Shown in pieces: positions 48,344 through 63,052 of a stretch of DNA of 64,000 bases (the stretch's first letter is position 1; each line of letters starts with the position of its first letter). Position numbers and translations under genes: made by a program. Location: contig JAFZLD010000009.1 of NCBI GenBank assembly GCA_017553505.1, positions 62,001-126,000 of the forward strand, written 5' to 3'. Under the pieces are notes generated by a model that saw nothing but the letters and a program-made list of their open reading frames with translations, did not search any database and had not been told where the DNA came from. Source of the stretch: Lachnospiraceae bacterium. Lineage in GTDB: Bacteria; Bacillota; Clostridia; Lachnospirales; Lachnospiraceae.

Positions 48344-49369
48344 TTACTGGAGGCCGAGGCTTGTGTCTACAGCGTTGGTAACGGAATTTTTCTTAATGTA
48401 GTCTACGACTTCGTCGACCTTGGTGAATGCGAGGCCTACGTAGGAGTCGGCGCAACCGTAGTAAAGGGCGATGCGGCCGGTCTCTGAGTCGTGGATGGTG
48501 GCGCAAGGGAAGCATACGTTGGGTACGAATCCGCGCTCTTCATATTCCTCTTCGGGAGTGAGGAGGAAGTTGGTACAACGATACTTAACAATCGAAGGGT
48601 TGTCAATGTCTAAGATGGCGCCGCCGATGGAATATACGTAACCGCTGCAGGTTCCGCATACACCGTGGTAGAAAAGGAGCCAGCCTTCGGTGGTCTCGAT
48701 GGGAGCTGCGCCGCCGCCGATCTTAAGTGATTCCCACCACTCGCTTCCGCGGCTCATAACGTGACGATGATGTCCCCAGTATTCCATGTCGGGGCTTTCG
48801 CTTACGAAGATGTCGCCGAAAGGTGTGTGTCCGGAATCGGAAGGTCTGGAAAGCAACATGAACTTGCCGTTTATCTTACGAGGGAACAGCACTGCGTTTC
48901 TGTTAAAAGGAATGAAAGGATTCTCGATTCTGGTGAAGGTCTTGAAATCCTGAGTCTTAGCCATTCCGATTGATGCTCCGAAGAAATCGCCGCACCAGAT
49001 AATATAATATGTATCTTCAACTTTAACAAGTCTGGGATCGTATGCGTAATTGGGCATGAAGGGCTCGCCTTTTTCATTGACGAACTGAACCTTCTCGGGC
49101 TCGAACTCCCAATGAATGGCATCCTTGGATCGTCCTAAATATACATAAGGGATACCGTTGGTCTGCTCGCCTCTGAATACGCCGATGAAGCCGTCTTCGT
49201 AAGGAGCTACCGCGCTGTTAAAGATACGTGCTACGCCTTCGATAGGGTTTCTCTTTATAATTGGATTCTCGCTGTATCTCCAGACAGGAGCATTCTTAAG
49301 TCCTGCGGGCTTGTCCTGCCAGGGCATGTTCTTAACTGCGGGGCTGTTTAAAATCTTAACTTCACTCAT
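48344..49369 (-). CDS. GH130 beta-mannoside/mannooligosaccharide phosphorylase
   Basis: About 341 residues. Start ATG 49369 (MSEVKILNSPAVKNMPWQD) follows AGAGGA; an ATG six codons earlier is less well placed. Five-bladed propeller features of GH130 are present: NPIIKRNPIEGVARIFNSA, IGVFRGEQTNGIPYVYLG, YAYDPRLVKVEDTYYIIWCG and GGGAAPIETTEGWLLFYHG. The family uses inorganic phosphate to release mannose-1-phosphate from beta-mannosides. No signal peptide, so it acts on imported oligosaccharides. Whether it prefers mannosyl-glucose or longer mannooligosaccharides is not clear from sequence alone. Confidence 0.9.
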   Translation of the reverse strand: MSEVKILNSPAVKNMPWQDKPAGLKNAPVWRYSENPIIKRNPIEGVARIFNSAVAPYEDGFIGVFRGEQTNGIPYVYLGRSKDAIHWEFEPEKVQFVNEKGEPFMPNYAYDPRLVKVEDTYYIIWCGDFFGASIGMAKTQDFKTFTRIENPFIPFNRNAVLFPRKINGKFMLLSRPSDSGHTPFGDIFVSESPDMEYWGHHRHVMSRGSEWWESLKIGGGAAPIETTEGWLLFYHGVCGTCSGYVYSIGGAILDIDNPSIVKYRCTNFLLTPEEEYEERGFVPNVCFPCATIHDSETGRIALYYGCADSYVGLAFTKVDEVVDYIKKNSVTNAVDTSLGLQ

Positions 49370-49420
49370 ATTGCATAATCCTCTCACATTTTGTTGTATT
49401 TGTCTTGTGTTGAATTCTTA

Positions 49421-49473
49421 ATAATAACTTAATTTAAGTTACAGTCAGAATTTGTTAGGTTTTTGTAACTTAA
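49421..49473 (-). promoter_or_regulatory. Candidate GH130 operon promoter with palindromic operators
   Basis: On the minus strand, CTGACT (49448-49443) and TATTAT (49426-49421) are 16 bases apart. The spacer holds the palindrome AACTTAA T TTAAGTT (49426-49440). TTAAGTTACA (49434-49443) and TGTAACTTAA (49464-49473) form a larger perfect 10-bp inverted repeat around 20 bases. A further GTTAAGTTAC lies at 49601-49610. These are consistent with repressor sites. Confidence 0.5.
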
Positions 49474-49701
49474 CAAATCTCTTCCTATATCACAGTACTA
49501 TCTTATCGGCGCAATTGCAAGTGTTTTCGGGAAAGTTTGTCAGAATGTGGCAATGAGATTTTGTCGGGATTGTAGAGAATTGACAGAGGATTTGGTTTTT
49601 GTTAAGTTACAAAAATTTATTGGTGGCGGGGTGGCGAAATTTGGGCGGTGCGGGCGTTTTACGGTACGCGGTCGGACGGGTTGAGGCACGTGAGGAGGTT
49701 C
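49474..49701. other. Noncoding stretch with one operator-like copy
   Basis: No gene is supported here. It holds GTTAAGTTAC at 49601-49610 and a GC-rich patch with repeated GGCG/GGGCG (about 49624-49656). The first unit of the inverted-repeat array starts at 49702. Confidence 0.5.
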
Positions 49702-50372
49702 TTTTCCCACCTTATGGTAGTTTTTCTGCGCAAGGTGTGAAAGGTTAGGTTTACATAACTTTGTCATTTCGCACCTTTTGTTGATTTTGGCTTCTGAGGT
49801 GGGAATCTTAGGACTTCTTCAATGGTATGAATTCACACCTTTTTGTCGATTTAAGTCATAAGGTGTGAATTGTAGCTGTTGTGTTGAGCTTTCTTTTCCC
49901 ACCTTTTGACGGATATGGGGCTTAAGGTGTGAAATATGATTGGGGTAATGCTTACTATTTTCCCACCTTATGATAGAAACCTGCTCCGAGGTGCGATTTA
50001 CGTAAAAAAGGAAGTTTCCTGCTGTCCCACCTTATCCATAAAAGTAGCTTGGAGGTGGGATTTTCATCTTTGAATGAAGAATAATCCCATCCATATTTGA
50101 TGGAAATTGCCATGGAAGGGGGCGACGCGGATGCTAAATGTTAGGTTTTACCCTTCCATATAGCTAACTTTGGCATGTAGATGGGGTTTCGATGAAGCCA
50201 TGATAGAAAATACCCCCCTCCATATGAGCATTATTGGCTCCGTGGTAGGGGGAATATTTCTTTTCCGCCCCTGCCATTTCTTTGTTTAATGCAACATGGA
50301 TGGGGTGGCTGACGAAATGATATACGAAAATGCCCCATCCATATATGTAATTCTGTCAATTTGGTAGGGTTC
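49702..50372. repeat. Tandem inverted-repeat array, 64-bp period (eleven units)
   Basis: Each unit is a left arm, a 15-19 nt loop and a complementary right arm, then about 22 nt of spacer. Units 1-6 have arms like TTTTCCCACCTT and AAGGTGTGAAA; left arms start at 49702, 49766, 49830, 49894, 49958 and 50022, exactly 64 bp apart. Unit 3 is perfect over 12 bp (AATTCACACCTT/AAGGTGTGAATT). Units 7-11 switch both arms together to a second class like CCCATCCAT and ATGGAAGGG; arms start near 50083, 50148, 50212, 50266 and 50331 (spacing 61, 65, 64, 54, 65). Loops share a loose pattern, often TTGGCTTC before the right arm. It lies between the GH36 terminator and the GH130 promoter. Not a CRISPR: no constant repeat and no cas genes. 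Confidence 0.88.
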
Positions 50373-50386
50373 GCAGACTTTTTGAG

Positions 50387-50434
50387 GCAAAAGAAGCCCC
50401 TTCCTTTAAGGTCAAACAGGCAAAAAGGAAGGGG
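50387..50434 (-). terminator. Rho-independent terminator of the GH36 gene
   Basis: CCCCTTCCTTT (50397-50407) pairs perfectly with AAAGGAAGGGG (50424-50434), followed by CTTCTTTTG on the minus strand. The stem resembles the second arm class of the adjacent array (ACCCTTCCAT). Confidence 0.8.
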
Positions 50435-50458: not shown

Positions 50459-52651
50459 CTAGACTTCTTCAAGATGGATCAGCGTGGACTTGAAGTCGCC
50501 CCAGCTGCGGGGGATGGGGAGGCCGGCGTACATTAGGGTGTCGGCGCCGTAGTTGCGGCCGGATTCGCAGTCGCGGTAGGTCTTCTGCGGGTCGAGGCCT
50601 TGGAGGCAGAGGGTGCGCGACTTGAAGTTCGGGTGGTTGAGCACCTGAACGAAGGTCACGAGAATCTCGCGCTCGTCCTGCGACTTCACCATCCAGGCGT
50701 CGTATTCGCCGTTGTCGGCCAAAGAAGCCAGACGGTAATAGTCACCTTCGCGAACGAGGTCATTGTACTTGTGATACTGCGCCACTTGAATCGGTATCTG
50801 GGCGCGGTCTTCCACCGAAATCTTGGTGATGTCGAGTTCGTAGCCGAAGGTGCCTGCGAGGGCGACGTGGCCGCGGGTCTTGAAAGGTGTGACGCGACCG
50901 ACTGCGTGGTTGGGGCAATCGGAGACGTGGGCGCCCATTGTGGAAAGCGGATAAATCAGCGCTGTTCCTTCCTGAATGGAGAGGCGCTCGATGGCGTCGG
51001 TATCGTCGGAAGTCCAAATCTGCGGGCTGTAATAAAGCATGCCGGGATCGAAGCGAGCGCCGCCGCCGGAACAATTCTCTATCAATAAATCAGGAAACGT
51101 AGTAACCAGCTTCTCCTGCAGGCGATAAACTGCAAGCACATATCGATGATAAAGCTCGCCCTGTCTGTCGGCGGGAAGGCCTGCGCTGTAAAGGTCCGCA
51201 AGCTGGCGATTCATGTCCCACTTGAGGTATTCAATGTTGGCGCTCTTAAGAACTGTCTCGATGCTATGCCAGGTATGCTCCCACACTTCGGGGCGGGTTA
51301 AGTCAAGCACGAGCTGGTTGCGCGAAAGTCCGGGCGCGCGCCCGGGTATCTGAATCGCCCAGTCAGGGTGCGCTCTGTAAAGGTCTGAATCCGGGCTCAC
51401 CATCTCGGGCTCCATCCAAATGCCGAACTTAAGGCCGAGCTTGTTAACTTCGTCCACGAGGTACTTTAGCCCGCCCGGCAACTTTTCTTCGTTGACCGTC
51501 CAGTCGCCGAGAGCCCTGTTGTCGTCGTAACGATTGCCGAACCAGCCGTCGTCCATAACGAGCATCTCGATGCCGAGTGCCGCCGCGTCTCTTGCTATAG
51601 AAAGAAGCTTCTCCGTATCAAAATTAAAGTAAGTCGCTTCCCAGTTATTAATAAGAATGGGGCGCTTTTTATGTAAGAATTTGCTTCTGATTAAGTGATT
51701 TCTGTACAGATTATGGAAGCTTCGTGTCATCGCTCCTAGGCCTTCAGCCGAGTACGTCATTACTGCTTCGGGAGTGGCAAAAGAATCTCCCGCTTCAAGC
51801 TTCCACTTAAAGTTATAGGGGTTAATGCCCATCTCTGCATGAATAAAATTAAACTGATCGAGGTCGGCCTGCGCTACGAAGTTACCTGAATAAATAAAAT
51901 TGAAGCCGTAAACTTCGCCTTGCGTCTCCGTCAGGTTCTTGTCGGTAATGGCCATAAAGGGATGTTCCTGGTGACTTGACTCGCCACGTCTTGAAGAAAC
52001 TCCCTGGAAGCCGTGGGCAATCTTTCTAAACTCTTTGTGACGCTCTCGCGCCCATGAGCCGTGAAGTGTAAGCAGATTATAATCTTTGTTCTCGAGGTTT
52101 AATGTGGTTGACATAACTCGAGTAATAAATACCGGGCTGGCACCGTCATTTATAATCCGTGCGCTGCGTGTAATACAATCGGTATCGGCGAAAACTGAGT
52201 ATGAAAGAATGACTGTGAGCTTAATAATAGGATCTCGTAAAGTCACTTCCAACGTCTCAACCGACTTCTCGTCACCAAAAGTTGCGGGTAATCCCTCGAG
52301 CGGATTCTTGCCCTTATAAATCTTATGGTTTACATATTGAAGCTCGGTGGCAGTTGTCCCGTCGGCAAGTTCAATCTCAAGCGCGTGACTCCTGTAATCG
52401 CCGATTCCGCCCGTAGAATACTCAAAAGGAGCAAAATCAAGAAAGCTGTTCTTGTCCTTAGTATTGACTCCCGGAAGGATATCGCCGTCGTAGAGCCTTG
52501 ACACATAACGTGCGTTATCTATATCATTTCTAATCTTGTGGCCGTAGTAATAATGAATCAGATAGCCGAAGTCATCGTCTATTCCGAATATATAGCTGGT
52601 ATGAGGAGTGTCTAACTTAAAGATTCTTTCTGCGTCGTTGTAAGTAATCAT
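50459..52651 (-). CDS. GH36 alpha-galactosidase
   Basis: A 730-residue enzyme removing terminal alpha-galactose, for example from galactomannan or raffinose-type sugars. The N-terminal beta-sandwich lies at about 1-320. The TIM barrel holds NNWEATYFNFDTEKLL, MLVMDDGWFGNRYDDNRALG, the nucleophile Asp in YLKWDMNRQ (about 480) and the acid/base Asp in IWTSDDTDAIERL (about 550). The cysteine motif ENCSGGGARFD is present. No signal peptide, so it is intracellular. The ATG follows AAGAGG; four direct repeats lie upstream. It sits between an SGNH esterase gene and the GH130 gene. Confidence 0.95.
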   Translation of the reverse strand: MITYNDAERIFKLDTPHTSYIFGIDDDFGYLIHYYYGHKIRNDIDNARYVSRLYDGDILPGVNTKDKNSFLDFAPFEYSTGGIGDYRSHALEIELADGTTATELQYVNHKIYKGKNPLEGLPATFGDEKSVETLEVTLRDPIIKLTVILSYSVFADTDCITRSARIINDGASPVFITRVMSTTLNLENKDYNLLTLHGSWARERHKEFRKIAHGFQGVSSRRGESSHQEHPFMAITDKNLTETQGEVYGFNFIYSGNFVAQADLDQFNFIHAEMGINPYNFKWKLEAGDSFATPEAVMTYSAEGLGAMTRSFHNLYRNHLIRSKFLHKKRPILINNWEATYFNFDTEKLLSIARDAAALGIEMLVMDDGWFGNRYDDNRALGDWTVNEEKLPGGLKYLVDEVNKLGLKFGIWMEPEMVSPDSDLYRAHPDWAIQIPGRAPGLSRNQLVLDLTRPEVWEHTWHSIETVLKSANIEYLKWDMNRQLADLYSAGLPADRQGELYHRYVLAVYRLQEKLVTTFPDLLIENCSGGGARFDPGMLYYSPQIWTSDDTDAIERLSIQEGTALIYPLSTMGAHVSDCPNHAVGRVTPFKTRGHVALAGTFGYELDITKISVEDRAQIPIQVAQYHKYNDLVREGDYYRLASLADNGEYDAWMVKSQDEREILVTFVQVLNHPNFKSRTLCLQGLDPQKTYRDCESGRNYGADTLMYAGLPIPRSWGDFKSTLIHLEEV

Positions 52652-52668
52652 GTGAGTGTCCTCTTATT

Positions 52669-52765
52669 TTGTTATGTAAACCATTATGAACTGCGGTCCA
52701 CTTTGTTATGTAAACCACACGCTCACCATAGTTATGTTAACTATATTCCATGTTATGTTAACTAG
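52669..52765 (-). promoter_or_regulatory. Four direct repeats (GTTATGTWAAC) upstream of the GH36 gene
   Basis: On the plus strand, TTGTTATGTAAACCA occurs at 52669-52683 and again at 52703-52717; GTTATGTTAACTA follows at 52731-52743 and 52753-52765 (approximate ends). Each copy is a half-palindrome GTTA-x3-AAC. They fill the 122-bp gap between the esterase and GH36 genes, so they probably form the GH36 operator. The core GGTTTACATAAC recurs in the opposite orientation at 49748-49759, inside the 64-bp array. Confidence 0.65.
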
Positions 52766-52773
52766 TCTTCTTT

Positions 52774-53910
52774 TTACAGATTTCCTTCCGGCTCCCTGTA
52801 CTCCCTGCCGAACTTCTGCGACAGGTACTCTCCCAGCACTCGCGCCGACTCAATATGCGACTTATAGCCGGGGTGGCTGTGTGAGCCGACGGTCACTTCA
52901 TCGATATTGGGAAGGTCAAGAAATGCTACGTTGTCATCGCCGGTGTCTGCACGGAACTTGTCCATGGCTTCAAGAATCGCGGGCTTCATTTCGTTGCCCA
53001 GCATTCCGTAAGCCCACAGAATGTGGCTCGTAGGATTCAAGCGACGAAGCAGCAAAAGAAAGTCATACACCGCATCGATAAACTTCTGCAAATCTTCCCT
53101 TACAAACGACTCGTCGGGATTGCGACGATTCTTAAACGTTCCCATGCCCGGAATCTCGAGCGGGGGCGTGTTAAAAGAAGAATTGTCGTTGGTGCCGAGG
53201 TTAACGATTATAGCATCGGGTTTCCAAGCTTCGTAATCGTTAGCTCTGCCGGCGCCTAGTTTTTCGTTAATCGGGCCCCAGGAAAGTCCGCAAATCGGTT
53301 CATACACTTTCGGTATCTGATGTCGCACATCGTTGTCCCAGCCTGAGTATACGCCCCAACCGCCCTGCGAAATAATGCGTACGTCAGCCTTCATAGCCTT
53401 TTCGATGATATTGGCGTAGTGACGGCTCGAGCTCATGTACATTGCAAGCCAGTCAGTGTCTCCGTTGGCGCCGTAAGTGCCTTCGCCGGAAGTTACGCTG
53501 TCGCCGATGAACTCGAGTTTAAAATCATTCTCGGGTACCGGAAAGAAGTTGCCGTCGGTGCGAAAGCCCTTAACCAGCACATGGCACAAATCGTCCTCGC
53601 TCATGGCCTGGAGCTCCCGGTAGAACTTAACGTTCTTGACAACTCCCGGAGTCATGGAGCGGAAAAGGCAGACCGACCTGTCTTCTTTGAGCAACATGCG
53701 ACGGCTCATGAGGGCACCGTTTAACTCTATAGCAATCCAGGGCTCGTGGAAGCCGTGGTCCACCTCTAAATCTATCCATAGTTCGGAACCGTCACAGTTC
53801 ACCTCAACGCCGGAATGGTTCCAAAAAAGCGGAAGCGGCGATGCGTCCTGCACCGTGCGGCCGTGAATCTTTTTATTTGCAATTTCCCGAATATCGTATG
53901 CTTTAAGCAC
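52774..53910 (-). CDS. SGNH/GDSL carbohydrate esterase (CE2-like)
   Basis: A 378-residue protein. A GTG start at 53910 follows GGGAGG. The N-terminal ~125 residues look like a beta-sandwich (NHSGVEVNCDGSELWIDLEV); the C-terminal SGNH domain has block I FIGDSVTSGEGTYG (Ser), IIVNLGTNDNSSFN (Asn) and a late SHSHPGYKSHIESARV (Asp/His region). Jelly-roll plus SGNH is the CE2 layout, and CE2 members remove acetyl groups from mannan or xylan. No signal peptide is visible, so imported acetylated oligosaccharides are the likely substrate. Context with GH36 and GH130 favours acetylated galactomannan; that specificity is inferred. Confidence 0.85.
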   Translation of the reverse strand: MLKAYDIREIANKKIHGRTVQDASPLPLFWNHSGVEVNCDGSELWIDLEVDHGFHEPWIAIELNGALMSRRMLLKEDRSVCLFRSMTPGVVKNVKFYRELQAMSEDDLCHVLVKGFRTDGNFFPVPENDFKLEFIGDSVTSGEGTYGANGDTDWLAMYMSSSRHYANIIEKAMKADVRIISQGGWGVYSGWDNDVRHQIPKVYEPICGLSWGPINEKLGAGRANDYEAWKPDAIIVNLGTNDNSSFNTPPLEIPGMGTFKNRRNPDESFVREDLQKFIDAVYDFLLLLRRLNPTSHILWAYGMLGNEMKPAILEAMDKFRADTGDDNVAFLDLPNIDEVTVGSHSHPGYKSHIESARVLGEYLSQKFGREYREPEGNL

Positions 53911-53959
53911 TTGTAACCTCCCACGCCCTGAGAAAGGGCTTCTTTTACTGACAATTCTG

Positions 53960-53981
53960 ATTATATCAAAAAACGTTTCAC
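53960..53981 (-). promoter_or_regulatory. LacI/CcpA-like operator and -10 box for the esterase gene
   Basis: The CG-centred palindrome AAACGTTT (53971-53978), extended as GTGAAACGTTTTTTG on the minus strand, lies just upstream of -10 TATAAT (53965-53960). CG-centred palindromes are typical LacI-family and cre sites, and a LacI gene closes this locus. Confidence 0.5.
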
Positions 53982-53995
53982 TTTCTACAGGGGAC

Positions 53996-54023
53996 TTGCA
54001 AAAATCACGATTTTCTGTAAAAT
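53996..54023 (+). promoter_or_regulatory. Candidate promoter of the ABC-F gene
   Basis: TTGCAA and TAAAAT are separated by 16 bases, about 50 bases before the ATG at 54071. Confidence 0.5.
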
Positions 54024-54070
54024 AAAAAAGGTTAAACGTTAATTGTATTATTTATAAGAAAGGTTTTTAC

Positions 54071-55708
54071 ATGATTGCAGCTAATAATGTAACCTTCAGA
54101 GTGGGCAAGAAAGCCCTTTTTGAAGACGTAAATATCAAATTTACCGAGGGAAACTGCTACGGTCTTATCGGTGCCAACGGTGCCGGCAAGTCCACATTCC
54201 TTAAGATTCTCTCCGGTGCGCTTGAGACCACTTCCGGCGATATCACCATCACCCCCGGCCAGCGTCTCTCCGTCCTTGAGCAGGACCACTTTAAGTACGA
54301 TGCTTTCCCCGTTATGGATACGGTTATCATGGGTAACAAGCGTCTCTACGATATTATGAAAGAGAAAGACGCAATTTATGCCAAAGAAGACTTCTCTGAC
54401 GAGGACGGTATCCGCGCTTCCGAGCTTGAAGCTGAGTTTGCAGAGCTTGACGGTTGGGAGGCTGAGTCCAATGCGGCTATGCTTCTTAACGGTCTTGGTA
54501 TCGAGACAGAGCTTCACTACTCCATGGTCGGCGACCTTGACGGTAACCAGAAGGTGAAGGTGCTCCTTGCGAAGGCGCTTTTCGGTAACCCCGACATTCT
54601 TCTTCTCGACGAGCCCACTAACCACTTGGACCTCGACGCTATCGCATGGCTTGAAGAGTTCCTTATTAATTTTGAGAACACCGTTATCGTAGTCAGCCAC
54701 GACAGATACTTCCTTAACAAGGTCTGCACACACACCGCAGACATCGACTACGGCAAGATTCAGCTCTACGCCGGCAACTACGACTTCTGGTACGAGTCTT
54801 CACAGCTTCTCATCAAGCAGATGAAAGAAGCCAATAAAAAGAAAGAAGAAAAGATCAAAGAGTTACAGGAATTCATCTCCCGTTTCTCCGCCAACGCTTC
54901 CAAGTCCAAGCAGGCTACTTCACGTAAGCGTGCTCTTGAGAAGATTGAGCTTGACGAGATTAAGCCTTCTTCACGTAAATATCCTTACATCGATTTCAGA
55001 CCCGAGCGTGAAATCGGTAACGAAGTCCTTACTGTTGAGGGCCTTACCAAGACTATCAACGGTGAAAAGGTTCTTGATAATGTGTCATTTATCCTTGGTC
55101 ACGACGACAAGGTTGCTTTTGTCGGTTCCAATGAGCTTGCCAAGACTACTCTTTTCAAGATCTTAGCCGGCGAGATGGAGCCCGATGCGGGAACATTTAA
55201 GTGGGGCGTAACGACTTCTTTGGCCTACTTCCCCAAGGATCCCGGCGATGAGTTCAACAACGACTACACCATCGTTGACTGGCTTACAGGCTACTCTCCC
55301 ATCAAGGACGTAACTTATGTGCGTGGTTATCTCGGTCGTATGCTTTTTGCGGGCGAGGACGGTGTTAAGAAGGTTAAGGTTCTCTCCGGTGGTGAGAAGG
55401 TGCGTTGCCTTCTTTCCAAGATGATGATTTCCGGTGCGAACTGCCTTATCTTCGATGAGCCTACCAACCACCTTGACATGGAATCCATCACCGCTCTTAA
55501 CAACGGTATGATTAAGTTCCCGGGTGTTGAGCTGTTCTCCTGTCACGACCACCAGGTTGTGGAGACCACCGCTAACCGCATCATCGAATTTCTTCCTAAC
55601 GGAACCATCATCGACAAGGTTACCACCTACGACGAATACCTTGCCAACGACGAAATGGCCAGAAAGAGAACCGTCTTTGTGGCTAACCGCGAGGATGACG
55701 AAGAATAA
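54071..55708 (+). CDS. ABC-F family ATPase (YbiT/YkpA-like)
   Basis: A 545-residue soluble protein with two ABC domains and no membrane segments. First domain: Walker A GANGAGKST at about 36-44 and Walker B LLLDEPTNHLD. The linker between domains is charged and helical (KQMKEANKKKEEKIKELQEF), as in ribosome-binding ABC-F proteins. Second domain: the P-loop is degenerate (GSNELAKTT), with signature LSGGEKVRCLL and Walker B LIFDEPTNHLD. A degenerate second P-loop of this kind is normal in this subgroup. AAAGGTTTTTAC lies ahead of the ATG. Housekeeping translation role likely. Confidence 0.93.
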   Translation: MIAANNVTFRVGKKALFEDVNIKFTEGNCYGLIGANGAGKSTFLKILSGALETTSGDITITPGQRLSVLEQDHFKYDAFPVMDTVIMGNKRLYDIMKEKDAIYAKEDFSDEDGIRASELEAEFAELDGWEAESNAAMLLNGLGIETELHYSMVGDLDGNQKVKVLLAKALFGNPDILLLDEPTNHLDLDAIAWLEEFLINFENTVIVVSHDRYFLNKVCTHTADIDYGKIQLYAGNYDFWYESSQLLIKQMKEANKKKEEKIKELQEFISRFSANASKSKQATSRKRALEKIELDEIKPSSRKYPYIDFRPEREIGNEVLTVEGLTKTINGEKVLDNVSFILGHDDKVAFVGSNELAKTTLFKILAGEMEPDAGTFKWGVTTSLAYFPKDPGDEFNNDYTIVDWLTGYSPIKDVTYVRGYLGRMLFAGEDGVKKVKVLSGGEKVRCLLSKMMISGANCLIFDEPTNHLDMESITALNNGMIKFPGVELFSCHDHQVVETTANRIIEFLPNGTIIDKVTTYDEYLANDEMARKRTVFVANREDDEE

Positions 55709-55714
55709 TAATTT

Positions 55715-55743
55715 AAAGGGAAGCTTGCGCTTCCCTTTATTTC
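55715..55743 (+). terminator. Rho-independent terminator of the ABC-F gene
   Basis: AAAGGGAAGC pairs perfectly with GCTTCCCTTT around TTGC, followed by ATTTCT. Confidence 0.85.
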
Positions 55744-55791
55744 TAGCCAAGTTTATCGATAGGGTCCGAAATAATAAAGGGAGGTCAGCTT

Positions 55792-57450
55792 ATGGTTGAC
55801 TTACATGTACATTCAACTAAATCAGACGGAACATATACACCGACAGAATTAGTTGACTACGCAATTGAAAAAGGGTTATCTGCATTTGCTCTTACTGACC
55901 ATGATTGTATAGATGGTCTTGATGAGACTATCAAATATGCGGAGAAACTTCGCGCTGCCGGTAAGAATGCGCCCGAGGTTATACCGGCGATTGAAGTGTC
56001 GACGGATTATGAGGGTACCGAGGTTCATATCGTCGGATTGTATATTAATCACAAGAGTGATGCGTTCCGTAAGTATCTCGTAGAATTTGCAGAGTCCCGT
56101 GAGAACAGGAATCGTACGATGTGCCGGAAGTTTACCGAAAACGGTATGCCTATGGATTTCGATGAGTTATGTAAACTTTCTCCTAATTCGGCGGTTATTA
56201 CTCGTGCGCATTTTGCGAGGTATCTGTTTGAGCATGGGTATGTTAAGAGTATGAAGGAGGCGTTCGACCGCTATATCGGTAACGGTAAGCCTTTTTATAT
56301 TCCACGCGAGAAGGTTACACCCGAAAAAGCTATTGAACTGATTCTCGCTGCAGACGGAATTCCGGTACTGGCACATCCTATGCTCTACGCTATCAGTAAG
56401 GATAGACTCGATGCACTGGTAGGTCAGTTAAAAGAAGCCGGCCTCTGCGCCATTGAAGGAATCTACAGTACTTACACTACTGCCGATGAACGCTTTGTAC
56501 GAGAGCTTGCTGATAAATATCACCTGTTATTGTCAGGTGGGAGTGATTTCCACGGAGCCAATAAGGTTGGTATAGATTTGGGTGTGGGATACGGCAAATT
56601 ATATATTCACGATTCAATCCTTGAGAATATTAAGAAGCTTCGTAAGAATGTTCTTTTTACAGATATGGATGGTACTCTCCTGCTTAAGGACAGTACAGTC
56701 AGCGCCGATATGAAGGCTGCGCTTGATAGAGCGGTCGCTTCCGGACACAGATTGGTGCTTACCAGCGGAAGACCTTTGCCCAGTATTAGAGAACGCATTA
56801 TTAAATTAGGATTTAATTACCCCGATACATACATTATCGCTTTCGGCGGTGCTCTTATATATGACCTCGAAGCCGGTAAAGTGATTCATTCTTATAAGGT
56901 TCCGCAGGTGGCCATTCGTGGCATTGCGGCGCTTTGTGAGGAAGCGGGTATCTATATTCAGGGATATACCGATGAAGAGATTATTCTTACCGCCGCTACC
57001 GAGGAGACCGATTACTACAGGCAGCGAGTCAACATGCCTTATCGCGAGGTTCCTGATCTTGCTGACTATCTGACAGACGGTTCTTCCAAGCTTCAGATAA
57101 TTCATCTTACCGACCACGAGAAGCTTGAAGCTCTCCGCGCTAAGATTGTGGCTCAGTACGGCGAATATGTGGACACTTTCTTTTCCAGCCCCCGCTATCT
57201 TGAGATTCTGCCTAAGGGTGTGAGCAAGGGTGTGGCTGTGAAGTTCATGACTTCGTATCTTTCGGTTCCTGTGTCGCATACTTTTGCCGCGGGTGACGAG
57301 GATAACGATATTTCGATGCTTAAGATTGCCGGTCACGGAGTTGCCATGGCCAATGCATCCGAGCAAGTAAAAGCCGCCGCAGATATTATCACGGTGAATG
57401 ACAATAACCACGACGGTCTCATAGAAATTCTTAACAAGTATTTTAATTAA
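55792..57450 (+). CDS. PHP phosphoesterase fused to a Cof-type HAD phosphatase
   Basis: A 552-residue fusion. Residues 1 to about 275 are a PHP domain: metal ligands in DLHVHSTKSDGTYT (HxH), LTDHDCIDG, a Glu in PAIEVSTDYEGTEVHI, HPMLYAI and GGSDFHG. Residues from about 283 are a HAD-IIB (Cof) phosphatase: motif I FTDMDGTLL, motif II LTSGRPLPS, the Lys of motif III near PKGVSKGVAV, and motif IV GDEDNDISML. The two phosphatases would be cytoplasmic and act on small phosphates, perhaps nucleotides or sugar phosphates. GGGAGG precedes the ATG. The joined arrangement is uncommon. Confidence 0.9.
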   Translation: MVDLHVHSTKSDGTYTPTELVDYAIEKGLSAFALTDHDCIDGLDETIKYAEKLRAAGKNAPEVIPAIEVSTDYEGTEVHIVGLYINHKSDAFRKYLVEFAESRENRNRTMCRKFTENGMPMDFDELCKLSPNSAVITRAHFARYLFEHGYVKSMKEAFDRYIGNGKPFYIPREKVTPEKAIELILAADGIPVLAHPMLYAISKDRLDALVGQLKEAGLCAIEGIYSTYTTADERFVRELADKYHLLLSGGSDFHGANKVGIDLGVGYGKLYIHDSILENIKKLRKNVLFTDMDGTLLLKDSTVSADMKAALDRAVASGHRLVLTSGRPLPSIRERIIKLGFNYPDTYIIAFGGALIYDLEAGKVIHSYKVPQVAIRGIAALCEEAGIYIQGYTDEEIILTAATEETDYYRQRVNMPYREVPDLADYLTDGSSKLQIIHLTDHEKLEALRAKIVAQYGEYVDTFFSSPRYLEILPKGVSKGVAVKFMTSYLSVPVSHTFAAGDEDNDISMLKIAGHGVAMANASEQVKAAADIITVNDNNHDGLIEILNKYFN

Positions 57451-57451
57451 A

Positions 57452-57700
57452 TTATGCTTCAATCACCAGGAATCTTCCGTCCCCGATGTCGAATACTTCG
57501 TCTGCGTCGAGGACGGTTTTTTTGTCATAATCGATGCCCTCTTCTTCAAAGTAGTCTATAACTTCCTGCTTGCCGTTTAACACCTGAGCGAAGCACTCCT
57601 CCAGAAACTCTGCCGCCTCTTCGTGAGTGGTGGCAACGGGCTTGGGAAAGAGCTTAAGCTGGTTGTCGATAAAGCACTGAGTTACTTTCTTGTCAAACAT
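57452..57700 (-). CDS. Small conserved-looking hypothetical protein (82 aa)
   Basis: MFDKKVTQCFIDNQLKLFPK and then EEAAEFLEECFAQVLNGKQE; acidic, helical, no membrane segment. Its stop is one base from the end of the convergent PHP-HAD gene. AAGGGGG precedes the ATG. It lies 29 bp after maf in the same direction and is probably co-transcribed. No function known to me. Confidence 0.6.
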   Translation of the reverse strand: MFDKKVTQCFIDNQLKLFPKPVATTHEEAAEFLEECFAQVLNGKQEVIDYFEEEGIDYDKKTVLDADEVFDIGDGRFLVIEA

Positions 57701-57729
57701 TTGTAATCCCCCTTTGATTAAATCCTGAT

Positions 57730-58341
57730 TTACGCGCGGCCCAAAGCTTCCTTGCAGCCGAGCTTTTTAATCTCGTGATAGAGTCTTGCGATGGGAAGTC
57801 CCACAACGTTGGCGTATTCGCCGTTGATTCCCTTGATGTATTTGCCAAAGAAACCCTGGATGGCATAAGCGCCAGCCTTGTCCATGGGCTCACCTGTTGC
57901 TATGTAAGCCTCGATTTCCTCGTCTGTTAAATCGTATACGGATACTTCAGTCTTCTCGAAGAAGCGAACCTGTTTCTTTTGCCCTTGGTTAACATAAGTC
58001 AGTGTAACGCCTGTTATTACGTCGTGGACATCGCCGGAAAGTTCCTTAATCATGCGGAAGGCGTCAGCCTTGTCCTTGGGCTTGCCGAGGCGCTCATCCT
58101 TGAAGAATACGAGGGTGTCGGCGGAGATGATAAGAGTCTCGCCGGTCTTGTCGATGCGGCCTTCGCGCTCCAGTCTTTCGTATACGTCCTCGCCCTTGCG
58201 CTGTGAAAGCTCCATAACGATTTCCGCGGGAACGGTCTTGGTAGGTGTCTCGTCGGCATCCGAAGTGATAACTTCGAAGGCGATTCCTGCCTGAGTCAAA
58301 AGTTCTTTTCTACGGGGCGAACCCGATGCTAATATTACCAT
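57730..58341 (-). CDS. maf: Maf-type nucleoside triphosphate pyrophosphatase
   Basis: A 203-residue house-cleaning enzyme that hydrolyses dTTP/UTP or modified nucleotides. Family blocks: ILASGSPRRKELLTQAGI at the N-terminus, then SDADETP, ISADTLVFF, LGKPKDKADAF and the C-terminal NVVGLPIARLYHEIKKLG. Length is typical. It precedes the 82-aa gene and follows the DUF815 ATPase gene by 14 bp. Confidence 0.94.
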   Translation of the reverse strand: MVILASGSPRRKELLTQAGIAFEVITSDADETPTKTVPAEIVMELSQRKGEDVYERLEREGRIDKTGETLIISADTLVFFKDERLGKPKDKADAFRMIKELSGDVHDVITGVTLTYVNQGQKKQVRFFEKTEVSVYDLTDEEIEAYIATGEPMDKAGAYAIQGFFGKYIKGINGEYANVVGLPIARLYHEIKKLGCKEALGRA

Positions 58342-58355
58342 TTCTAAACCTCTCT

Positions 58356-59645
58356 TTATCTGTTACCCAGTAAGTACTGGATGAATTGCTGTGCACATCT
58401 GCCGGAGGGACCGCCATGGGTAATCTCCCACTGATTGGCCTTAAGGAGTAACTCGTCCTCGGGCATCATAATCTCGTTACGCTTCGCAAGCTCCGTCACG
58501 ATATGATTGAATTCCTTGTGGCTCGGTGACTCAAAGAAAATCGTCACGCCGAAACGATTGTAAAGCGATAACTTCTCCTGCATGGTATCTCTGAAGTGTA
58601 CCTCATCGTCCGCATTGCCGCGCTCCGAGAATTTCTCATTAATTAAGTGGCGGCGGTTCGATGTTGCATAGATTAACACATTCTTCGGTTTCTTTTCAAG
58701 GCCGCCCTCGATGACAGCCTTAAGATACTTGTACTCTATCTCGAAATCTTCGAAACTCAAATCGTCCATATAAAGAATGAACTTGTAATTTCTGTTCTTA
58801 ATCTGCGCAATTACGTCGTTAAGATCCGAGAACTGGTGCTTATAAATCTCTATGATGCGAAGGCCTTCCTCGTAGTACATGTTGGCAATCGCTTTAATGC
58901 TCGAGCTCTTACCGGTGCCGGCATCACCAAAAAGAAGGCAATTGTTGCAGGGCTTACCCTTCACAAAAGCAGAAGTATTGTCGGTAAGCTTCTTCTTGGC
59001 GCTTTCGTAACCTACCAGGTCGTCAAGCTTCACATGCGCGATATTGGTAATCGGCACAATCTCAGCGCCGTTGTCCGTATGCTGAACTCTGAAAGCCTTG
59101 TGCAGACCGAACTTGCCTACACCGTAGTCGCGGTAGAACTCGGTAAGCACACGCTTCATCTCAATAGGCGTCGCAGCTTTATTGAATCTGTCGGCGAGCT
59201 CAACAATTCTCTTGCAGATACGGGTATTGTAAACCTTACTCTCGCGCGTCGAGCAACTATAATTGAGTGCCAGTTCGAAATCATGTATTCCGAGCGCATT
59301 CACCATGTCGGAGAAATCATAGTCATAGAGTTCCTTGAGGATTACGATGTCGTGAAGCACCGCTTCATTAATGGTACCCTCAATCTCGCCTACCACCTCA
59401 CAAGCCATGGAGTAGCTGTTCTCATTGTTAACAAGAAGGTTAGACAGATAGCAGTGCCAGAGATTGCCATAGAAGCCGTACTGTCCCGCAAGCTCAAGCA
59501 ATTTATGGAAGCACTCATAAAATAACGTCTGTAATTCAAGTGTATCACGGTCATTCTTTTTGTAATTCTCGATTAAATAAACCATGTCCTTAAGCAGAGC
59601 GCCGTCTTCGAAGTCTCTGTATACTATCAGTTCCTGTTCTCTCAT
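58356..59645 (-). CDS. DUF815 AAA-type ATP-binding protein
   Basis: A 429-residue protein. Walker A is LLFGDAGTGKSSSIKA at about 235-250, Walker B LYMDDLSFEDFE at about 292-303, with ATSNRRHLINEKFSERGN (sensor-like) and the final ITHGGPSGRCAQQFIQYLL block. DUF815 proteins are AAA+-like ATPases of unknown role. It is probably transcribed with maf. The ATG at 59645 follows AAGGAGATTTCC. Confidence 0.9.
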   Translation of the reverse strand: MREQELIVYRDFEDGALLKDMVYLIENYKKNDRDTLELQTLFYECFHKLLELAGQYGFYGNLWHCYLSNLLVNNENSYSMACEVVGEIEGTINEAVLHDIVILKELYDYDFSDMVNALGIHDFELALNYSCSTRESKVYNTRICKRIVELADRFNKAATPIEMKRVLTEFYRDYGVGKFGLHKAFRVQHTDNGAEIVPITNIAHVKLDDLVGYESAKKKLTDNTSAFVKGKPCNNCLLFGDAGTGKSSSIKAIANMYYEEGLRIIEIYKHQFSDLNDVIAQIKNRNYKFILYMDDLSFEDFEIEYKYLKAVIEGGLEKKPKNVLIYATSNRRHLINEKFSERGNADDEVHFRDTMQEKLSLYNRFGVTIFFESPSHKEFNHIVTELAKRNEIMMPEDELLLKANQWEITHGGPSGRCAQQFIQYLLGNR

Positions 59646-59762
59646 GGAAATCTCCTTTTTTGCAAAAGAACTTCTTTCGCAGATATCTAATTCTACATCT
59701 TTTAAAACTTGATAGCAAGCGCCACTAAGGGGTATAATCTAATTAAGAAAGGGGGTATAGTT

Positions 59763-60806
59763 ATGTCGAGTCTTTCCAAGAAAATAATCGCAATAGCCGG
59801 CGCACTTCTGCTGATTGCTTTTACCGTATTCTACATAATTCGTACTACCCACAAAGTCGACATTCCTCCGGGAACCGTGGGTGCCACTGCAGGTAACCTC
59901 TATAACGACGGATTGTTCTGTGAGGAAGGCGGCAAGGTTTATTTTGCCAATTCTTACGACGATGGATGTCTGTACGTTATGAACCCCGACCATACCGAGA
60001 TGAAAAAGCTCTACAATCTCGAGTCTAAGTTCATAAATGTGGGCGGAAATTTCGTGTTCTTTTACGGTAAAGTCATTTCACAGAGTCAGGGCCTCGGTTC
60101 CGTAGTGTCCAAGCCCGGTATGTACATGATTAACAAGAACGGCAAGAACCTTCTGGCGCTTACCAAGGACAAGTCCCAGTGTATGCTCCTCGTGGACGAC
60201 TACATTTATTATCAGCACTACACGCAGAAGGGCGGCGCGGACTTCGAGCGCATCAACCTTCACAAGCGCGAAAGTGAGCCGTGTCTTGATTATTTCATCA
60301 CCCCGGCCAGCTACTATAACAGCAATATCTACTTTAACGGTCAGTACGATGACCACCATTTATACACCTACAATGTAGCTACCGGCGAGGTCACCGATGT
60401 CTGGGGCGGCGATATTTGGAACCCCATCTGCACCGGCGATTACGTCTACTACATGGATGTCCGGCATAACTACAGGCTCTGCCGCTACTCGATGTCCTCC
60501 AATACCATCGAGATTCTTACTAAGGACCGCATCGATTTCTTCAACGTATACGGCAACATTATCTACTACCAGAAGTCATCGACCACCGACCCCGGCCTTC
60601 ACCGCATGAACATCGACGGCAGCAACAACGAACTCATCGCCGAGGGCGTATATAACAGCATCAACATCACTTCTTTGTACACGTACTTTAAGGAATTCGG
60701 CAACGACGTGACCACTTACTACACTCCCACCGTCGGCCTCGTAGATGTTAGGGAATTCACCGCTGCCAGAGACGCAGCTATCGAGAACATTAAGAAGAAT
60801 AAGTAA
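59763..60806 (+). CDS. DUF5050 beta-propeller membrane-anchored protein
   Basis: About 347 residues. ATG 59763 (MSSLSKKIIAIAGALLL) follows GGGGG; an ATG 18 codons earlier lacks a site. One N-terminal helix (about 7-26) anchors an extracellular domain with repeated blades (GGKVYFANSYDDGCLYVMNP, VDDYIYYQHYTQKGG, GDYVYYMDVRHNYRLCRYS, YGNIIYYQKSSTTDPGLHRM). This repeat pattern is the DUF5050 type, likely a six- or seven-bladed propeller. Function unknown; surface sensing or wall binding possible. Confidence 0.8.
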   Translation: MSSLSKKIIAIAGALLLIAFTVFYIIRTTHKVDIPPGTVGATAGNLYNDGLFCEEGGKVYFANSYDDGCLYVMNPDHTEMKKLYNLESKFINVGGNFVFFYGKVISQSQGLGSVVSKPGMYMINKNGKNLLALTKDKSQCMLLVDDYIYYQHYTQKGGADFERINLHKRESEPCLDYFITPASYYNSNIYFNGQYDDHHLYTYNVATGEVTDVWGGDIWNPICTGDYVYYMDVRHNYRLCRYSMSSNTIEILTKDRIDFFNVYGNIIYYQKSSTTDPGLHRMNIDGSNNELIAEGVYNSINITSLYTYFKEFGNDVTTYYTPTVGLVDVREFTAARDAAIENIKKNK

Positions 60807-60812
60807 CATACG

Positions 60813-60849
60813 TAAAAAGAAGCCGCTCCGCAAGAAGCGACTTCTTTTG
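60813..60849. terminator. Bidirectional terminator between convergent genes
   Basis: AAAAGAAG-CGCT pairs with AGCG-CTTCTTTT with an A run before and T run after. It separates the DUF5050 gene (+) from folB-folK (-). Confidence 0.75.
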
Positions 60850-60859
60850 TATTGCAATT

Positions 60860-61687
60860 TTATTTCTGAAGTTTCGCAAGCATTTCGCCTGCTCTTAAGC
60901 CCATTATCGGATGTCTTACGTACGGATCTACCTCAGCCAGAGGCTTAAGCACGAACTCGCGGTTAGCCATGTCGACGTGCGGTATCGTGAGTCTCTCTGT
61001 ATCTATCACAAGATCGTCGTAATAAATAATATCGAGATCGATGGTACGCGGTCCCCAGTGAATTACGCGCTCGCGACCGAGTCTATGCTCTATCTCGTTA
61101 AGCTTCTTAAGAAGGTCATCCGGCGGAAGAAGCGTCGAAATCTTCCAAAGTCCGTTGATGAAATCGGGCTGGTCGGTTACGCCATAAGGCTTAGTCTCGA
61201 TAAGCGCCGATTCAGCCAGCAGTTCATTGCCCTCTACCTTGAGGAGCATCTCCTGCGCCGTCTTGATGGTGTCTTCGCTCTCTCCGAGATTGGAGCCTAC
61301 AGCTATGTAAGCCGTGTGGCGAGCCCGAGTTATGTAAACCGACACATTCTCAAAGTCAAGCGGAATAGGCGCATGAGGCTTGAACACTTCAACGTCCACA
61401 CGGTCCAGTAACGAATACTTAAGTAACAGTGCGGCGGCCACTTCCTCGGCAGCGGTCTCTATAAGATTGTAGGCATACTTGGTAAATACTTCGTGGGCAA
61501 GCTCGCACGCTTCGGAATAATTGACAGTCTTCTCCAGATTGTCGGTTATCCCTGCCGGCGTAAGATTAAGGTGAAGCGTGATATCAAGAGTGAACTCCTG
61601 ACCCTTCGTACGCTCCTCCTCAAGGCAGCCGTGGTAAGCATATACCTTAAGCCCTTTTATATTGATTCTGTCGCCATAATCAAGCAT
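60860..61687 (-). CDS. folBK: Bifunctional dihydroneopterin aldolase / HPPK (FolB-FolK)
   Basis: A 275-residue fusion. Residues 1 to about 122 are FolB (INIKGLKVYAYHGCLEEERT, then VNYSEACELAHEVFTKYAYN), which cleaves 7,8-dihydroneopterin. From about 127 comes FolK (AYIAVGSNLGESEDTI, then the pyrophosphokinase signature GPRTIDLDIIYYDD). Together they convert dihydroneopterin to its hydroxymethyl-pterin pyrophosphate. It overlaps folP by 8 bp. Fusion of these two is known in Firmicutes. Confidence 0.95.
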   Translation of the reverse strand: MLDYGDRINIKGLKVYAYHGCLEEERTKGQEFTLDITLHLNLTPAGITDNLEKTVNYSEACELAHEVFTKYAYNLIETAAEEVAAALLLKYSLLDRVDVEVFKPHAPIPLDFENVSVYITRARHTAYIAVGSNLGESEDTIKTAQEMLLKVEGNELLAESALIETKPYGVTDQPDFINGLWKISTLLPPDDLLKKLNEIEHRLGRERVIHWGPRTIDLDIIYYDDLVIDTERLTIPHVDMANREFVLKPLAEVDPYVRHPIMGLRAGEMLAKLQK

Positions 61688-62486
61688 TCTTTATAGCCTC
61701 CATCATGGTGATAAAGCGTTTGTTTTCTTTGACATCGTGCACGCGGACAAAAGAAGCCTTATTAAGCACTCCCAGCGCCGTCGTCGCAAGCGTACCTTCC
61801 AGACGCTCATCCGTAGGAAGATCGAGTGTCTTACCGATTACGCTCTTGCGGCTGGTACCGAGAAGCCACGGGCATCCGTAACCGTTCATGACTTCCAGAT
61901 GATTAAGCACATAAAGATTGTCCTCATAAGTCTTGGCAAATCCGATGCCTGGATCGAGAATAATCTTATCCTTGCCGATACCCGCTTCGATTGCGGCGTT
62001 ATAAATCGCCTGCAGATCAGTCACGAATTCTTCTTTGAAATTCTTGTAATTGTACTCAGCCCTGTTGTGAGTAAGGCAGCATACGCACTCGGCATCCGCG
62101 ATAACCTTAAGCATTGCAGGCCAGTCGCAGATATTCTTAACATCATTGACGATGTCCGCTCCCGCTCTCAATGCCGCAGCCGCAGTCTCCGGCTTGTATG
62201 TGTCTATAGATACAGGGATGTTAAATTCTGATTTAATTCTCTCAATTATCGGTGTGGTTCGCTCAATTTCCTCGGGCGCCGTAACCTCGATAAATCCGGG
62301 TCTTGTGGACTCTCCGCCCACATCGATAATGTCCGCGCCTTCATTAATCATCTTCTCCGCATGCTTAAGCGCCGCATCCAGAGTATTGTGCATGCCCCCG
62401 TCGGAAAAAGAATCCGGCGTGACATTCAAAATCCCCATAATATATGTGTGATTACTTAAATCAAACTTCTTGTTCCCAATAATCAT
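61680..62486 (-). CDS. folP: Dihydropteroate synthase
   Basis: A 268-residue TIM-barrel enzyme joining the pterin pyrophosphate and p-aminobenzoate; the sulfonamide target. Blocks: MGILNVTPDSFSDGG (about 17-31), DIIDVGGESTRPGF, PVSIDTYKPETA, DPGIGFAKT and LLGTSRKSVIG. Length is typical. It follows folE by 8 bp and overlaps folB-folK. Confidence 0.96.
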   Translation of the reverse strand: MIIGNKKFDLSNHTYIMGILNVTPDSFSDGGMHNTLDAALKHAEKMINEGADIIDVGGESTRPGFIEVTAPEEIERTTPIIERIKSEFNIPVSIDTYKPETAAAALRAGADIVNDVKNICDWPAMLKVIADAECVCCLTHNRAEYNYKNFKEEFVTDLQAIYNAAIEAGIGKDKIILDPGIGFAKTYEDNLYVLNHLEVMNGYGCPWLLGTSRKSVIGKTLDLPTDERLEGTLATTALGVLNKASFVRVHDVKENKRFITMMEAIKNA

Positions 62487-62494
62487 CGTACCGA

Positions 62495-63052
62495 TCAGTC
62501 CTTAATCATATCGAAGAATTGTCTTCTTAAATTCTCGCTGTCCTTAAACTCGCCGCGAGTTGCGATTGTCTGAGTCTTGCTTCCGGGCTTCTTGATGCCG
62601 CGCATAGTCATACACATATGCTCAGCCTCGGCCAGTACCATAACTCCCTTCGGATGCAGATTATCCATAAGCGCATCCGCAATCTGAGCAGTCATCTGCT
62701 CCTGAATCTGAGGACGCTTCGCATAAACTTCCACCAATCGTGCAAGCTTGCTTAAGCCCACAACCTCGCCGTCAGGAATATACGCTATATGAATCTTCCC
62801 GTAAAAAGGAAGAAGGTGATGCTCGCAGGTGGAATAAAAAGTAATATCCTTCTCAAGCACTATCTCACTGCCCGTCACCTTAAAACGCTTCTTAAGAATC
62901 TCCGCGGGATCCATATCGTATCCGCCGTAGATTTCCTCATACATCGCAGCTATACGCTTGGGGGTCTCCGCAAGTCCCTCGCGGGTCACATCCTCGCCGA
63001 TTCCCTCGAGCAATAATTCAATTGCCTTTTCAACTTTACTCTTGTCTATCAT
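62495..63052 (-). CDS. folE: GTP cyclohydrolase I
   Basis: About 185 residues. ATG 63052 ([20 protein letters not shown]) overlaps the folC stop by 4 bp (ATGA), with GGAG seven bases upstream; an earlier in-frame start within folC is less likely. Zinc and active-site blocks are complete: [20 protein letters not shown] and the C-terminal [19 protein letters not shown]. It forms dihydroneopterin triphosphate from GTP, the first step of folate synthesis. Confidence 0.96.

Follow-up and report, generated by a model that had tools for sequence, protein, structure and literature searches.

What purpose a long row of short inverted repeats could serve between two genes of a Lachnospiraceae bacterium is the question raised by a locus in the DNA analysed here, a window of 64,000 nucleotides. 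Such a row might be read as RNA hairpins, as binding sites for a protein, as operators of the adjoining genes, or as a repeat without any function for its host. The array was followed up in the genome of the window (G000), in two sister species (G013 and G002), and in further genomes of the genus and the family.

Anatomy of the array in the window

The array extends over positions 49705-50433, between a GH130 gene (48344-49387, minus strand) and a GH36 gene (50459-52651, minus strand), both assigned by Pfam, and comprises 12 dyad units, none of which is given a strand. Block A (49705..50060) consists of six units of the form CNNACCTT ... AAGGTNNG at steps of 64, 64, 64, 64, and 64 bp: unit 1 (49705..49740, with its CC beginning at 49710), unit 2 (49769..49804), unit 3 (49833..49868, the arms of which are complementary throughout), unit 4 (49897..49932), unit 5 (49961..49996), and unit 6 (50025..50060). 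Their left arms begin at 49706, 49770, 49834, 49898, 49962, and 50026, exactly 64 bp apart, just as the earlier note had read them. After a step of 61 bp from unit 6 to unit 7, block B (50086..50433) adds six units of a second arm type (CCATCCAT-like ... GGAAGGGG-like), distinct from that of units 1-6, at steps of 65, 64, 54, 65, and 64 bp: unit 7 (50086..50120) and unit 8 (50151..50185), both with a loop of 21 nt, unit 9 (50215..50250), unit 10 (50269..50304, 54 bp after unit 9), unit 11 (50334..50369), and unit 12 (50398..50433). The last had been taken for the terminator of GH36, and the units had been counted as eleven; this hairpin, behind a gene transcribed from the minus strand, stands in phase with the array, 64 bp past unit 11, and is its twelfth unit. 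The claim that the arms do not vary is correct only in part, as the two blocks differ in their arms, and several units have mismatched ones.

A pattern of the two-unit geometry, composed only once the units had been seen, matches seven times in the window and in none of 100 dinucleotide-preserving shuffles, which bears out the array as real. A matrix built from units of the whole family gives no score of at least 11 bits in positions 1-49000 or 50501-64000. Coding sequence was rejected, as had been anticipated, since the period of 64 is no multiple of 3 and, among open reading frames of 60 aa or more, just one, of 75 aa, reaches the array, at its edge. Searches against Rfam 15 give no match in the window at the gathering score, the best sub-threshold match reaching 19 bits against the 53.1 demanded.

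Besides the array, the region upstream of GH130 holds an 18-bp perfect inverted repeat (TTTTTGTAACTTAACAAA) at 49460-49477 and 49598-49615, 120 bp apart, which is conserved in G013 and is possibly the operator of a nearby LacI-type regulator.

Further loci and the catalogue of units

The covariance-model search that the earlier note had proposed was productive: in G000, a model of the units gives 49 matches at E <= 1, 48 of them within six arrays (five beyond that of the window), and more arrays were found in the sister species and in G316, a genome of another genus. Arrays are present at six loci in G000, five in G013, and four in G002, with single weak matches outside them at G000:C1, G013:C12, and G013:C34 (E 0.03). 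The loci are named after the G000 or G013 contig and their neighbors, and orthologous sites were placed by flank searches. All three genomes carry arrays at C3 (between RNHCP and SpoU methylase genes), C5 (between a GH39 gene and one without a Pfam family), and C22 (between shikimate kinase and amino-acid kinase genes). C11, between a gene without a Pfam family and an HTH_3 gene, has arrays in G000 and G013 and none in G002, and C18, between a PadR gene and an unnamed one, has them in G000 and G002 and none in G013. The locus of the window, C13, carries its array in G000 and one leftover unit in G013, its site not being located in G002. C9, between DHH and Flavodoxin_4 genes, has an array in G013 and none in G000 or G002.

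The neighboring genes are of unrelated function and can be divergent, co-directional, or convergent. Divergent genes flank C22 and, as judged from the G000 ortholog, C9; the C3 array lies between convergent ones, beginning directly behind a stop codon. A tie to the use of mannan, in whose locus the earlier note placed the window array, is not supported, given that the remaining six loci flank unrelated genes. As a separate observation, the gene adjoining the C5 array (L173:8416-9210, L165:3833-4708, L166:3599-4402) is strongly divergent in G000 from the versions of the sister species, in otherwise similar surroundings, and the G000 protein has no Pfam match.

The catalogue drawn from these seven intergenic loci in the three sister species holds 15 arrays with 104 curated units and 89 steps, the number of units per array ranging from 3 to 12. 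It was obtained with a hand-made arm score at a cut-off of 19, after removal of 11 named background-like entries. Lowering the cut-off to 17 brings 280 hits elsewhere in the window, over 62,000 bases, so single weak units, though not the arrays, may be wrong. With position 0 set at the first C of the left-hand CC, the consensus reads C(-4), CC(0,1), W(2), T(3), an A/T-rich center at 11-14, W(23), GG(24,25), and G(29). The loops had been described as variable, which is true of their sequence and not of their length, as 22 nt separate CC and GG in 85 of the 104 units and 21 nt in the other 19.

The spacing of the units is similarly narrow. A step of 64 bp occurs 64 times, 63 and 65 bp nine times each, 54 bp four times, and 55, 61, and 62 bp once each, so that 82 of the 89 steps measure 63-65 bp; without the C18 and G002 PadR arrays, the counts in the same order are 53, 9, 7, 4, 1, 1, and 1. 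The repeat of 64 bp corresponds to about six helical turns, and the five steps of 54-55 bp are one turn shorter. Each of the five leads on from the third unit in an array of type B, and one inherited event may therefore underlie them. Along the unit, the A+T content peaks near -7, 3, 12.5, 22, and 32, with about 10 bp between peaks, and the linker shows a flat profile. In the 85 units with a 22-nt loop, the strongest A+T period is 9.75 bp, and likewise in the type-A subset (61 units); in the type-B subset (14 units) a period of 7.0 is strongest and one of 10.25 ranks fifth. The whole pattern is reminiscent of a bent dyad site, about 44 bp long, joined to a linker of some 20 bp in which length is what matters.

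Conservation of arms and spacing

The C3 (SpoU-locus) array of G013 offers the clearest view of what is kept. Its arms are 97% identical between units and all six steps measure 64 bp, despite loops that are 33% identical (30% expected from composition) and linkers that are 30% identical (27% expected). Arms and spacing thus look selected in this array. Over all arrays, the mean identities are 0.81 for arms, 0.40 for loops, and 0.38 for linkers, against expectations of 0.25, 0.28, and 0.27. When the C3 array of G013 is compared with its ortholog in G002, differences occur at 3 of 126 arm positions, 11 of 126 in loops, 13 of 120 in linkers, and 9 of 56 in the A/T flanks (Fisher P 0.010, arms against loop plus linker), and one of the six steps differs, by 1 bp.

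Three arrays depart from this picture. The linkers of the C18, G002 PadR, and G013 XRE arrays are well above chance in similarity, so that part of their regular spacing results from recent duplication: whole units were recently duplicated in the first two, and the G013 XRE array, with a linker identity of 0.50, keeps traces of duplication. Along an array the half-sites are alike, as would be expected if a single protein bound them: CCCACCT/AGGTGGG is found in 7 of 7 units of the C3 array in G013 and CACACCT/AGGTGTG in 8 of 9 units of the C5 array in G002. Loops and linkers at C5 cannot be aligned between G013 and G002, yet the CACACCT type is common to both (3 of 7 and 8 of 9 units).

Pairing within and between units

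Whether each unit is maintained as a hairpin of its own can be judged by comparing the pairing of its two arms with that between arms of neighboring units. The alignment used comprised 42 gapless two-unit windows chosen among the 82 steps of 63-65 bp, with a step of exactly 64 bp, both loops of 22 nt, and less than 80% identity to earlier windows. The proportion of cells with a standard pair is 83.8% between the two arms of one unit (covariation 0.233) and again 83.8% between a right arm and the left arm that follows it in the neighboring unit (covariation 0.230). Both values exceed column shuffles, as is expected when arms are alike within arrays.

Across the 104 units, Watson-Crick pairing of own arms at variable positions is 0.644. 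It falls to 0.619 when right arms are re-dealt within their array (P 0.026), to 0.617 when the shuffle never pairs own arms (P 0.077), and to 0.489 when they are dealt across arrays, where none of 2000 shuffles reaches the observed value. At single positions, own-pairing excess is seen at -5, -1, and 2 (P 0.043, 0.009, and 0.015). With its mixture of two arm types, the window array has the greatest excess (0.67 vs 0.45); the other 14 arrays show none in nine cases and a small one in five, at P 0.13-0.39. Mismatches of the wobble type, summed over arrays, amount to 38 G-T and 27 A-C and follow no single direction throughout. The stretch 49652-50364 folds better than its shuffles on either strand (z -4.9 on plus, -5.2 on minus, 50 shuffles), and the folding of single-unit hairpins is uneven, with z from -0.1 to -5.2 (200 shuffles, 11 units, both strands). 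Because the arms are alike throughout an array and pairing across units equals that within them, phased protein half-sites are favored over individually selected RNA or DNA hairpins.

Turnover among the sister species

Several sites appear to have lost their arrays. At C13, the stretch 49652..50363 is missing from the orthologous site of G013, where the flanking alignments are 94% and 93% identical. Unit 12 is the only whole unit left there, accompanied at the deletion junction by unit-11-like arm sequence (the right-arm-like GGTAGG). A simple insertion into G000 was rejected on account of these two remnants, which make a loss in G013 likelier. At C9, G000 and G002 retain the last right arm just before TATAAT, with the rest of the array gone. 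Given the arm remnants at array-less sites, the C9 and C13 arrays probably predate the species split and were lost later.

At four loci, the arm type has also changed in one lineage. At C3, C5, C22, and C11, the arrays are of type B in G000 and of type A in G013, and G002 has type A at C3, C5, and C22. Comparing G000 with G013 over the first 400 bp on each side, the flanks are 92-98% identical at C3 and 94-100% at C22, and an exchange of arm types together with long flanks was rejected on these grounds. The C11 flanks are 91-99% identical over their first 400 bp and less so farther out, and at C5 the left flank is 86-97% identical and the right side cannot be aligned. Recent copying of type B among loci was likewise rejected, as blastn finds no B-to-B similarity of at least 50 bp at E 1e-3. 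The C18 array, for its part, resembles the C9 array of G013 (72-76% over 107-171 bp).

Distribution in the genus and the family

Of the 18 genomes of the genus, three yielded arrays: G000, G002, and G013. Completeness reaches at least 90% in six genomes, namely these three and G006, G011, and G017, which showed none; the other twelve genomes are less complete or more contaminated. The one match in G006 (E 0.047) lies in sequence that reads as coding. No unit is present at the PadR locus in five more distant congeneric genomes, nor at the C22 locus in more distant congeners (six genomes, seven loci), and the regions upstream of five loci out of 80 (L005-L009) show no array by reading.

In the family, a first model, R2, matched only the genome of the window among 200. 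Little can be concluded from this result, given the narrowness of R2: the arrays that G013 and G002 carry at C3, C5, and C22 escaped it at E <= 0.01. A broader model, R3, was run on 396 genomes of 317 genera under strict filters, with 10 candidates scored per genome, and matched 24 genomes besides G000 at E <= 0.01. The matched stretch was read by eye in 19 of these 24, that is, in all except G156, G171, G259, G404, and G408. One of the 19 holds true relatives, namely G316, with three units at 64-bp steps at one locus and, at another, a pair separated by one such step; its half-sites, CATACC/GGTATG, switch orientation at intervals of 31-33 bp. The two-unit array is directly adjoined by a tandem repeat of 19 bp (CATCTTCTTACGC-like; L223:1638-1790). 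In G254, from another genus of the family, three loci (L204:60-230, L225:1516-1700, and L226:1433-1620) carry looser palindromic repeats, CCAACCTT/AAGGTT(T/G)GC and GCAAAC.../GTTTGC, with half-sites 28-31 bp apart and irregular steps (about 59-75), which are perhaps a looser cousin of the 64-bp arrays.

The remaining R3 matches that were read are, by eye, coding sequence, terminators, or, at L216, a CRISPR array; this last (L216:1441-1680, in G376) has a repeat near TTTCAATCCACACCTTCCTCGCAGAAGGTGAC and matched through its CACCTT/AAGGTG arms. A further 40 genomes near G316 gave four weak matches at E <= 0.02 (G054, G025, G032, and G033). The one that was read, in G054 (L207), shows no 64-bp array; at L207:1506-1640, a terminator-like hairpin behind a gene is followed by two right-arm copies at 48 and 43 bp. 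An origin as a phage or plasmid element was rejected, blastn giving no match at E 1, and the one exact-pattern hit in viral_contigs lies in sequence that is coding by eye and holds no array.

A proposed mechanism and its alternatives

The reading preferred here, with a probability of roughly 0.52, is that the array acts in cis as a row of two-fold-symmetric sites for a putative dimeric DNA-binding protein, or for two related ones. Each unit would present two inverted half-sites, about ATAAGGTNNGAA in type A and about ATGGAAGGGG in type B, read outward, with the GG/CC cores some 24 bp apart around an A/T-rich center and units following every 64 bp. Dimers would then sit in phase along the DNA and touch their neighbors over a linker fixed in its length but not in its sequence, building a nucleoprotein row. 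This row might serve the chromosome as a landmark, boundary, or anchor, rather than one operon, a guess prompted by the variety of gene orientations and functions around the loci. Phased sites for several dimers should place half-sites at helical-turn distances over unconserved linkers, and this is the arrangement found. Binding by a protein is also favored by the steps one turn shorter, the likeness of the half-sites, and the A/T-rich dyad center, and the 64-bp steps are retained in another genus, in G316. Of the two possibilities raised in the earlier note, phased binding sites or serial RNA hairpins, the former is hence preferred and the latter disfavored. Against the protein reading stand the half-site letters at -3 and -2, which are array-specific in a manner that one protein alone would not demand, the dispensability of arrays at several loci, the chance that all steps of 54-55 bp go back to one event, the slight excess of own-arm pairing over the within-array shuffle, the A+T period of 7.0 that leads in type-B units, and the well-above-chance linkers of the C18, G002 PadR, and G013 XRE arrays.

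The main rival holds that the array is a selfish or neutral repeat, grown by tandem duplication of units, with arms homogenized by template switching or recombination and with no host function. The recent whole-unit duplications fit it, as do the range of unit numbers, the absence or reduction of arrays at several loci, the array-specific arms, and the similarity of C18 to the C9 array of G013, according to which arrays may be copied between loci. Neutral drift, however, should leave linker indels of every size, and the persistence of arms and a fixed spacing over loops and linkers near chance is not readily explained in this way, which leaves a selfish origin rather doubtful. Serial hairpins of RNA or single-stranded DNA, for instance a guide array, would account for the complementary arms of each unit and the folding of the whole stretch, and TIGR stem-loop arrays are, in the portion of their description available, likewise regularly repeated palindromes (PMC12045711). 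They are nonetheless improbable, considering the equal pairing across units, the 14 non-window arrays, nine of which show no own-arm pairing beyond their within-array shuffle and five an excess that is not significant, wobble-type mismatches that favor no one strand throughout, and the 18 proteins scanned near the G000 loci, none of which has a Nop domain.

An equally improbable alternative takes the arrays for multi-dimer operators, each controlling a neighboring gene. Several arrays do lie close upstream of likely promoters (as recognized by eye), and the C9 arm before TATAAT was retained without the rest of its array; the C3 array, though, follows a stop codon between convergent genes, and the neighbors share no function. 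Six to nine dyads in a row are also more than a usual operator has. Local operators are possible at some loci, above all at C9.

Returning to the proposed row of dimers, it could tentatively be extended to a chromosomal nucleoprotein lattice of a kind not yet described, in which a dimer reads alternating half-sites with a built-in repeat of 64 bp (six turns) at a few fixed addresses, its half-site preference having shifted between sister species. The geometry of these arrays seems to be maintained independently of their sequence, as linkers whose similarity is near chance hold their length across many units. The prediction that follows is that a dimeric protein repeats every 64 bp, which, if true, would represent a new mode of marking or organizing the bacterial chromosome in a family common in the rumen and gut.

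Comparison with known systems

No described family was found to match the arrays, and no such array was found in the open-licence literature, a thin coverage from which most subscription journals fall outside. PurR-type operators of Bacillus consist of two inverted boxes about 16 bp apart bound by a dimer, as proposed for the units of the array, but they occur as one site per promoter, with another sequence and unarrayed. CRISPR arrays are defined by near-identical repeats, unrelated spacers, and cas genes. Here, only the arms of about 10 nt are conserved, as inverted pairs, and no cas-like Pfam hit appears among 18 proteins, which upholds the earlier view that the array is not CRISPR-like. 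These proteins were scanned near the six G000 loci and one orthologous site, and two of them have no Pfam family.

TIGR-Tas arrays are also made of tandem palindromic units of regular length. In the part of their description available, they carry dual spacers of 8-12 nt and box C/D motifs, adjoin a Nop-domain gene, and give rise to processed guide RNAs (PMC12045711). The arms of the present arrays are, in contrast, uniform within an array, Pfam finds no Nop-domain gene beside them among the 18 proteins, and a loop of 18 nt seems insufficient to hold two such spacers plus boxes. REP sequences are extragenic palindromes that alternate at regular spacing in BIMEs; the accessible text puts them at over 100 copies per genome and ties them to a tyrosine transposase, RAYT (PMC2817692). 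The arrays number at most six per genome, none of the 18 neighboring proteins is a RAYT transposase, and no transposase was found beside them; nor are their hairpins individually conserved, given the equal cross-unit pairing.

The Neisserial intergenic mosaic elements (NIME) combine a 20-bp dRS3 unit, ATTCCC-N8-GGGAAT, present in about 700 copies per genome, with RS elements of 30-160 bp in between, and one dRS3 type is the target of phage integration, according to the part of the source available (PMC3898611). They share with the present arrays an intergenic position and short repeats with inverted ends set amid other sequence. No 64-bp phasing is described in that part, and the dRS3 pattern is not that of the arrays, where about 22 nt separate CC and GG. 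STAR elements of Staphylococcus are 14-bp direct repeats with the motif T(G/A/T)TGTTG(G/T)GGCCC(C/A) and at least 40 bp between them (PMC3532100, as far as its text was available). The text describes neither an inverted dyad nor a fixed spacing for them, and the units studied here, compared by eye, have a different consensus and do not form direct repeats of that motif. They agree, on the other hand, in being intergenic, in occupying many loci, and in combining a short conserved motif amid variable sequence with a variable number of units and a locus-specific sequence. Judged from these partial descriptions, the known kinds that come closest are STAR elements and NIME arrays.
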